The notes under the pieces: generated by a model | The model's input: only the letters and a program-made list of their open reading frames with translations | The model's database searches: none | Told to the model about the DNA's origin: nothing | Position numbers and translations under genes: made by a program | DNA from: Chitinophagaceae bacterium | Lineage (GTDB): Bacteria; Bacteroidota; Bacteroidia; Chitinophagales; UBA10324 | Assembly: GCA_947469485.1 (NCBI GenBank) | Contig: CANIPU010000007.1 | Location: 1-64,000 of the forward strand | DNA: 64,000 nt | Reading direction: 5' to 3' | In this document: positions 572 to 24,344 of the stretch, in pieces | How positions within the stretch are numbered: position 1 is the stretch's first letter | Layout of the letters: every line of letters begins with the position of its first letter

Positions 572-573
572 GA
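562..573 (+). repeat. Left half of the dispersed repeat split by the IS110 insertion
   Basis: TTGTCATCCTGA is identical to 24320-24331, the left half of the intact repeat between nuoI and nuoH. Identity stops exactly at 574. The matching right half begins at 1795 on the other side of the IS110 element. Confidence 0.85.
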
Positions 574-576
574 TTT

Positions 577-1563
577 CTATGACATAACCAAAACAGATTT
601 GTAATTTCTTTTTTGATTGACGACGGCACAAATTCTATGGACCAGTTTATTTCGGATTGCATTTAGAACAGACATTTTATTTTTTCCATCGGCTACCTTT
701 CTTTGATAATAATCTTTTAGTTCTCCATCTAATCTGATTACACTCATTGCTGATGGGTGTAACAGTTTCTTCAATTCTTTGTCTGCAAAAAAAGATAACC
801 GTTGTCGACCTCTAATGCTGGTGCCGGATGAATGTTCAAAAGGAACAACTCCTGCATAGCAAGCGAGCTTGCGCGGTTCATTTATGTTTCTGAACTCGTT
901 GGTTCTTACAATCAGGTAGCAACACAATATTTTACCCACGCCTCTCACACTGGTAATATAACCGGTCTGTTCAGTCAATTGAGAATCGTTGATGATCAGT
1001 TCATCAATCGCTTGTTCTACTTTTTCTAAATTCTTTTCTGTTGCTTTCATCATTTGCTTGTTAACGGTCAAAGCAGTTTTTAGTGAAGTGGATTTTTCAA
1101 AGACGGCTAATTCTTTAACAGCAGTTTTTAATTCCCGCATCCAGGATACTAATCTTCTTCGCTCGGTCAGAAGTAATTGAAGTTGAGTAATTACTTCACG
1201 CTGCGGTTGCCACGGCTTTAAATCAGCATGATTCTTTCTGGTAAACATCGCAATGCGCTGTGCATCTATCTTGTCATTCTTCCCTCTGGATAGCCCTAAG
1301 CTTTTAGACAAATGCAATGGAGCAATTACATACACAGTAAAAGTGTGCAAGGCAAGTTCAGATAGCAGAGCAATGTTATATCGCCCTGTATTTTCCATGC
1401 CGATACAAATTTCATTCTCGCAATTTTTGAATTGCGCAATAAATTTTCTGATCGCTTTCTTTTCGTTAGTAATTTGAAAATGTTGTGCTTGATCATCAAG
1501 CAGGCAGATATCCAAAGTTGCTTTGCTGATATCTACCCCAATGAATGTTTTTATTTCTTTCAT
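577..1563 (-). CDS. IS110-family DEDD transposase/recombinase (328 aa)
   Basis: This is the recombinase of an IS110-type element. The N-terminal RuvC-like domain carries the family's acidic residues at D11 (GVDIS), E57 (GMENTGRY), D97 and D100 (NDKIDAQR). A helical segment spans about 115-200. The C-terminal Transposase_20 domain (from about 203, SVRGVGKIL) has an SSGTS motif at 245-249 that is the candidate for the catalytic serine. The family inserts circular element DNA using a bridge RNA encoded beside the gene. Length is typical and the frame intact, so the element may be active. The TAG stop lies only three bases from the core at the right end. Confidence 0.96.
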   Translation of the reverse strand: MKEIKTFIGVDISKATLDICLLDDQAQHFQITNEKKAIRKFIAQFKNCENEICIGMENTGRYNIALLSELALHTFTVYVIAPLHLSKSLGLSRGKNDKIDAQRIAMFTRKNHADLKPWQPQREVITQLQLLLTERRRLVSWMRELKTAVKELAVFEKSTSLKTALTVNKQMMKATEKNLEKVEQAIDELIINDSQLTEQTGYITSVRGVGKILCCYLIVRTNEFRNINEPRKLACYAGVVPFEHSSGTSIRGRQRLSFFADKELKKLLHPSAMSVIRLDGELKDYYQRKVADGKNKMSVLNAIRNKLVHRICAVVNQKRNYKSVLVMS

Positions 1564-1597
1564 ACTTTTGGGTTTAGGTCAGATTACTGGATGGAAC

Positions 1598-1790
1598 ACT
1601 CAAGCACATTCAACTCCTTGATAATGGGTCTTACCCTAATTTCTATTTGAAGCTTGCATGAGTGAAAGGGGTGTAAGTCTGAATCAAGGTATAAGCCGCT
1701 AGCTTAGAGCTTGTCATAGTTCACCTTCACCTCTTTCCATTCAATAATTCTGAGTTATTTAATCTGACTAATATAGTCGGATGCAAGTCT
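1598..1790 (-). ncRNA. Candidate bridge RNA of the IS110 element
   Basis: Read on the minus strand, upstream of the transposase. A weak 5' hairpin (1782-1776/1768-1762, one mismatch) is followed by a target loop. This loop is closed by 1737-1728/1673-1664 (9 of 10 bp) and 1723-1720/1683-1680. It holds GACAAGCTC (1715-1707), identical to the left target half with the core, then a 5-bp hairpin (1706-1702/1696-1692), then CTTGA (1688-1684), which pairs with the right target half. A donor loop follows, closed by 1663-1659/1602-1598, 1657-1655/1606-1604 and 1651-1647/1613-1609. It holds ATAGAAAT (1646-1639), identical to the element's right end, a GGGT/ACCC hairpin, and AAGGA (1619-1615), complementary to the left end. 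The loop order matches the published IS621 bridge RNA. The RNA ends are estimates. Confidence 0.82.
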
Positions 1791-1794
1791 AAAG

Positions 1795-1809
1795 GAGCTT
1801 GTCGAAGGA
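1795..1809 (+). repeat. Right half of the dispersed repeat split by the IS110 insertion
   Basis: GAGCTTGTCGAAGGA is identical to 24330-24344. The base before it (1794) breaks the match, so the two halves overlap by exactly GA, the core dinucleotide of the insertion. Confidence 0.85.
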
Positions 1810-24257: not shown

Positions 24258-24294
24258 ATTCTTAGTTTCGTGTTTCGAGTTTGTTGTTTCGCGC

Positions 24295-24344
24295 TTCGAC
24301 AAGCTCAGCGTGACAGTCGTTGTCATCCTGAGCTTGTCGAAGGA
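24295..24344. repeat. Intact dispersed repeat, inverted pair, between nuoI and nuoH
   Basis: Two facing copies of the same repeat arm, TTCGACAAGCTCAG (24295-24308) and CTGAGCTTGTCGAA (24328-24341), separated by 19 bases and extended by GTGACA/TGTCAT. The right copy (24320-24344) is the intact form of the site split by the IS110 element at 562-573 and 1795-1809. It sits in a 147-base gap of the nuo operon and could form a hairpin in the transcript. Similar sequences are common between genes in Bacteroidota genomes (from memory, not checked). Confidence 0.88.

Follow-up and report, generated by a model that had tools for sequence, protein, structure and literature searches.

A left-end bridge RNA predicted for a Bacteroidota IS110-group element, with loops that match a dispersed host repeat and the element's own ends

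Introduction

Does the non-coding DNA in front of an IS110 transposase gene in a Chitinophagaceae genome encode a bridge RNA, and do its guides correspond to the DNA that the element joins? The locus lies within a stretch of 64,000 nucleotides (the window), and an earlier note, made by reading these letters by eye, had described such an RNA with two guide-bearing loops and presented it as an independent Bacteroidota example. Its novelty was overstated in that reading, since Durrant et al. 2024 (PMC11208160) had already predicted bridge RNAs in 85.7% of IS110-group elements and covariation over thousands of pairings of donor with target. What is added here over prior work is a split promoter of the Bacteroidota type, which the note had not mentioned, and a natural retargeting series within one phylum. 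From comparison of natural sequences we conclude that the locus is, with high probability, an IS110-group element with a bridge RNA in its left end, the loops of which would pair with the element's own ends and a dispersed repeat of the host.

Results

An IS110-group element with defined borders

A single IS110-group insertion sequence lies on the minus strand, within window positions 1810 to 560 (Table 1). Its recombinase contains the Pfam domains DEDD_Tnp_IS110 and Transposase_20 and has relatives of known structure in ISCro4 (PDB 9t56, E 2e-17) and IS621 (8wt6, E 2e-15). The reading frame is open and contains all five catalytic residues, D11, E57, D97 and D100 (DEDD) and the serine S246, each of which 47-48 of the 48 homologues have kept. 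Those close relatives that are named all come from Bacteroidota, in line with the earlier assignment. Within the host genome this is the sole Transposase_20 gene and the DNA of the element is single-copy; a scan of viral contigs with the transposase returned no relatives.

Exact borders were obtained from multi-copy relatives, five copies in one genome (G842) and five in another (G569), all of which begin with CTTTAG directly after the core and end in ATAGAAA plus the core. As in the IS110 family, a short core is found at both junctions and is TC on either side of the window element; left and right core dinucleotides are identical in 11 of the 25 scored elements, and the remainder have the final C alone in common. 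A long left end carrying the RNA and a short right end place the element in the IS110 group.

Table 1. Features of the element, its predicted RNA and its target repeat, in window coordinates
Feature	Position	Strand	Basis
Left half of interrupted host repeat, TCCTTCGACAAGC (plus core)	1797..1809	-	25-nt joined match to intact copy
Core TC, left junction	1795..1796	-	Multi-copy borders and sequence
Non-coding left end (LE), 231 nt, carries predicted bridge RNA	1564..1794	-	Borders from multi-copy relatives
-7 box TAGACTTG (TAnnTTTG type)	1784..1791	-	20 nt from -33 box in circle junction only
Predicted bridge RNA	1596..1778	-	5' end placed by -7 box; 3' end uncertain
5' stem-loop GACTA-TAT-TAGTC	1766..1778	-	Predicted fold
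Target-binding stem and loop; outer arms 1737-1728/1673-1664, inner AGGT 1726-1723/ACTT 1678-1675	1664..1737	-	Covariation
Left target guide (LTG) GACAAGCTC, including core TC	1707..1715	-	Equals 1803-1795
Target-loop apical hairpin TAAGC/GCTTA	1692..1706	-	G-C, A-U, U-A exchanges among relatives
Right target guide (RTG) ACCTTGA	1684..1690	-	Against TCAGGAT 573-567: one G-U, one C.A mismatch
Donor-binding stem and loop (ACTCA/TGAGT, AAGC/GCTT, TTCAA/TTGAA)	1598..1663	-	Covariation
Left donor guide (LDG) ATAGAAATT	1638..1646	-	Equals right end 580-572 save G-U at last core base
Donor-loop apical hairpin GGGT/ACCC	1626..1636	-	Comparative fold
Right donor guide (RDG) UAUCAAGGA	1615..1623	-	Sequence
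Transposase/recombinase IS110, 328 aa	577..1563	-	Pfam PF01548 E 5e-24, PF02371 E 5e-18
-33 box TTTG, within 3' end of transposase gene	589..592	-	TTG at junction position, 29/29 elements
Right end (left donor half), ATAGAAATC at 580-572, overlaps transposase stop codon	572..580	-	Sequence
Core TC, right junction	572..573	-	Multi-copy borders and sequence
Right half of interrupted host repeat, AGGATGACAA	562..571	-	Sequence
Intact target-repeat copies, inverted pair (GCTTCGACAAGCTCAGC ... CCTGAGCTTGTCGAAGG)	24293..24343	.	Pattern search and sequence

The fold of the predicted RNA covaries across relatives

The segments, coordinates and guide matches that the earlier note had listed on the minus strand were exact on re-reading, including the RTG segment CTTGA (1688-1684), which pairs with TCAGG (573-569) with one G-U as it had said; the three stems that it quoted all pair, although the 10-bp target stem (1737-1728/1673-1664) is not perfect and has one A.C mismatch. 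The 5' end of the RNA is probably located near 1778, just past the -7 box at 1791-1784, and not at 1794. Rfam 15, searched at gathering score, gave no match over the bridge-RNA region, and over the whole window it gave a tRNA only.

The fold energy of the single RNA showed no significant excess over shuffled sequences (z -1.75 for 231 nt and -0.50 for 184 nt) and was too weak a measure, so the fold was tested by comparison of relatives. RNAalifold, run on nine relatives with no structure supplied, returned the same stems, with compensatory change in 19 of 28 pairs, and when the structure string was imposed on the same nine, 84.9% of cells paired compared to 70.9% after shuffling and at most 50.7% when the string was slid. 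Helix 2, in the target-binding region, pairs in 97% of cells with 6 of 8 pairs compensatory (alignment A1), and helix 4, in the donor-binding region, pairs in 91.5% of cells with all six pairs compensatory in alignment A2.

A covariance model (R1) was seeded by nine relatives, the window sequence among them, and places the RNA of the window at 1743-1596 with 116.6 bits and E 3e-22, a score for one of its own seeds. In the fetched loci it yielded 53 matches, almost all of which sit immediately upstream of an IS110 transposase, and by this model the bridge RNA is present upstream of about 45 transposases. Among the 39 non-seed matches 87.2% of cells pair, whereas shuffling gives 59.7% at most and sliding no more than 46%; the 87.2% leans upward in that the alignment was fitted to the structure, and the shuffles were run on that same alignment. 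The relatives thus display a target loop followed by a donor loop, both having an apical hairpin flanked by two guides, on stems that covary.

Guides follow the flanks and ends of their own elements

We compared guides with flanks and ends after placing borders by element-internal motifs only (a CCTTTAGATTTG-like left end and a CATAGAAATC-like right end), reading the guides off model columns and omitting the core from scoring. The LTG matched its cognate left flank at 5.04 of 8 positions on average and non-cognate flanks at 2.15 (28 elements), and the RTG its cognate right flank at 3.88 of 5 as against 1.50 (25 elements). The first seven bases of the LDG matched the element's own right end at 6.27/7, and those of other elements at 5.60/7 (44 elements); this tracking includes the rare right-end variants ATAGCAA, ATAGATA, ATGGAAA and TTAGAAT. 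In each comparison 0 of 20,000 guide permutations reached the cognate value, a control that corrects incompletely for the relatedness of the elements. Target guides, those of the window copy included, therefore both match the insertion site and covary with it, and the LDG does the same with the joined ends. For the RDG the match was read from the sequence itself: AAGGA pairs with TCCTT (1796-1792), UC is skipped and UA pairs with TA, bringing 9 RNA nt onto 7 DNA nt.

Individual elements illustrate the correspondence. In a same-genus relative (L119) the LTG AGTTGTGCTC equals the flank AGTTGTGCTC, and the RTG AAATCGA faces TCGATTT. In the G842 relative the LTG CGTTCCTC equals the flank CGTTCCTC, the RTG ATTTCGA faces TCGAAAT, and the guide-spelled sequence occurs in 30 further copies (at most one mismatch) beyond the five occupied sites. 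The multi-copy relatives in G842 and G569 thus record repeated insertion at guide-spelled sites. Four elements (L042, L062, L081 and L083) are left-guide misfits at 0-2/8, and register shifts probably lie behind some of these low scores.

The earlier note had proposed aligning relatives, building a covariance model and comparing guides with flanks; all of this was carried out with supportive results. It had also named as grounds for rejection guides that do not track flanks or ends and stems that do not covary, and we found neither.

Two features of the core were also seen. In the left core the first base is variable and follows the LTG (n=25: TC 10, GC 9, AC 4, CC 2; for example L079, L021, L018, L088 and L044), while 24 of 25 elements have TC as their right core. 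Nearly all TC-core elements have a U in the LDG at the position facing the last core C, and this core G-U wobble is conserved.

The element interrupts a dispersed repeat

Without the element, its flanks read TCCTTCGACAAGC-TC-AGGATGACAA, 25 nt identical to an intact copy near 24320-24344. An empty site was sought via the neighbouring DNA in 15 relatives and none was found, the flanking genes being unconserved at the DNA level; copies of the dispersed repeat stood in for the empty site of a sister genome. A pattern search with CCTTCGACAAGCTCAGGNTGAC returned nine copies in the host genome at up to three mismatches and none with the reversed pattern as control, which bears out the proposal that the element is programmed for a dispersed repeat.

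The host genome also has five Y1_Tnp matches, and about 1.5 kb or less separates two of these (L133 and L134) from a repeat-like copy. This is suggestive, and only that, of a REP-like target repeat linked to REP-associated (Y1) transposases. Further short palindromes with a REP-like look (GGCTTGCAGCCGAG, GACTTGTAGTCGGAC and CGGTTTGCAACCGG) lie at 146-275 of the window, downstream of the element.

Joining the ends assembles a Bacteroidota-type promoter

Housekeeping promoters of Bacteroidota carry TTTG at -33 and TAnnTTTG at -7 (PMC2483708, PMC7366714), the -33 motif not having been recovered in Flavobacterium johnsoniae (PMC7366714). With this Bacteroidota consensus, a promoter is reconstituted across the junction of right end and left end (RE-LE): TTG stands exactly 20 nt ahead of TAnn(T/C)TTG in 29 of 29 well-bounded elements, or 29/31 in the full set with the divergent L020 and L104, a count that reflects shared ancestry and hence a conserved position, not 29 independent events, in elements picked by a left-end motif that partly selects the -7 box and leaves the -33 box unselected. 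In the integrated state of the same elements, 0 of 29 left flanks had TTG at the 20-nt spacing, and in 2,000 shuffles the top count for any position was 6, compared to 29 at the junction.

IS621 rebuilds a sigma70 promoter at the same place (PMC11208160), and the principle of a rebuilt promoter is therefore already known; in the literature searched we found no description of its Bacteroidota form. It is likely that in this IS110 clade the switch known from bridge-RNA elements has been fitted to the sigma factor of the phylum itself. With the -33 box in the right end and the -7 box formed by the opening bases of the left end, only the excised circle would give the 20-nt box spacing, and RNA and recombinase would be made chiefly when the element is excised.

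Discussion

Our data are consistent with a scheme in which the element would be excised as a circle, the joined ends of which would form the promoter. Transcription from this promoter, mainly in the circular state, would yield a left-end RNA about 180 nt long, comprising the 5' stem-loop, the target loop and the donor loop. Both strands of the target repeat, CCTTCGACAAGC-TC-AGGATGAC, would pair with the target loop, and both strands of the joined element ends, ATAGAAA-TC-CTTTA, with the donor loop. The RNA would be bound by the DEDD/serine recombinase, and together they would bring target and circle junction into contact, with strand exchange at the core. The window copy itself is presumed to be active.

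This last point bears on a different reading, in which the window copy has decayed, its guides fitting a former target or one that differs slightly, and the element is no longer mobile in this genome; such a copy would still encode a bridge RNA and would differ only in present activity. We regard this as possible though on the unlikely side. Single-copy status in the host genome and the lack of a sister copy fit decay, as do known remnants of the family (L127, for example) and an RTG that is imperfect against the present site: with the core excluded it has 3/5 identical positions, one G-U and one C.A, and most relatives are stronger. Set against this are an open transposase with its five catalytic residues and intact stems, ends, core and promoter boxes, and in natural IS110 guides the number of mismatches to the target motif is mostly between zero and two (PMC11208160).

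It is highly improbable that the matches are relics of DNA homology, either captured bits of target or signs of DNA-DNA or protein targeting with no RNA acting. DNA comparison alone cannot establish an RNA, but compensatory changes extend over six helices, the halves of each loop hold guides for opposite strands, the promoter is positioned to transcribe exactly the bridge-RNA stretch, and the homologous RNA of IS621 is experimentally required (PMC11208160). That hairpins and short matches were read by chance into an AT-rich left end has a negligible probability: the weak fold z-score and guides of only 5-9 nt fit chance, and to that extent the fold energy lends nothing to the earlier judgement that chance is unlikely, but tens of relatives share the architecture with differing cognate guides, and the RNAalifold covariation, the guide-flank permutations (0/20,000) and the pairing of non-seed matches relative to shuffles refute it.

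The preferred reading, a bridge RNA encoded in the left end, places the element close to IS621 of E. coli (PMC11208160, PMC11208158). In both, a left-end RNA is built of a 5' stem-loop followed by the target and donor loops in that order, with left guides of 8-9 nt and shorter right guides, all four of which read the core. Both also have a discontiguous 9-to-7 RDG pairing (PMC11208160), dispersed palindromic repeats as targets and a promoter rebuilt at the RE-LE junction; the loop order, guide logic, inclusion of the core and left-end position given in the earlier note agree with this. The two differ in core (TC here, CT in IS621), in promoter (Bacteroidota -33/-7 type, not sigma70) and in the LDG U at the last core base of nearly all TC-core relatives, and their recombinases are only distantly similar (E 2e-15).

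The seekRNA of ISEc21, an IS110-family element (PMC11187229), is likewise an upstream non-coding RNA matching both target strands, but its reported form is 74-nt, whereas the window element has a clear donor loop and a predicted form of ~180 nt. Elements of the IS1111 group also combine a DEDD transposase with a guide RNA, but theirs lies at the right end, together with subterminal inverted repeats; in the window element that end is a few bases long. Membership of IS1111 was ruled out because the RNA sits in the left end. ISPpu9, ISPpu10 and ISPa11, REP-targeting IS110 elements (PMC1525189), similarly insert into dispersed extragenic palindromes, although in different hosts and different repeats.

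Natural sequences alone thus indicate that bridge-RNA programming holds throughout a Bacteroidota clade, in which sister elements have a common scaffold and guides that differ from one element to the next, as do the host sites that these guides spell. About 30 natural guide/target/donor sets, with their borders fixed and a native promoter layout, are available as a panel for testing programmable recombinases in hosts from Bacteroidota and for studying how elements get reprogrammed between dispersed repeats.

Other elements were met among the relatives. In genome G011, which is without a full relative, L127 holds a remnant at 1400-1850, an orphan bridge RNA and left end followed by a broken transposase start. 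In genome G012, an IS110 element (L022, 55-2472) has about 1.2 kb between bridge RNA and transposase; this stretch contains internal repeats and an ORF of 179 aa in which the motif VIMPNHYHLVW occurs and which returned no family when searched against Pfam, and the right guide of the element matches its own flank at 8/8. In Runella defluvii (L053, 2700-5150), two IS110 elements lie side by side in opposite orientation, the first without a recognisable right end, and each has a bridge RNA on its own strand.
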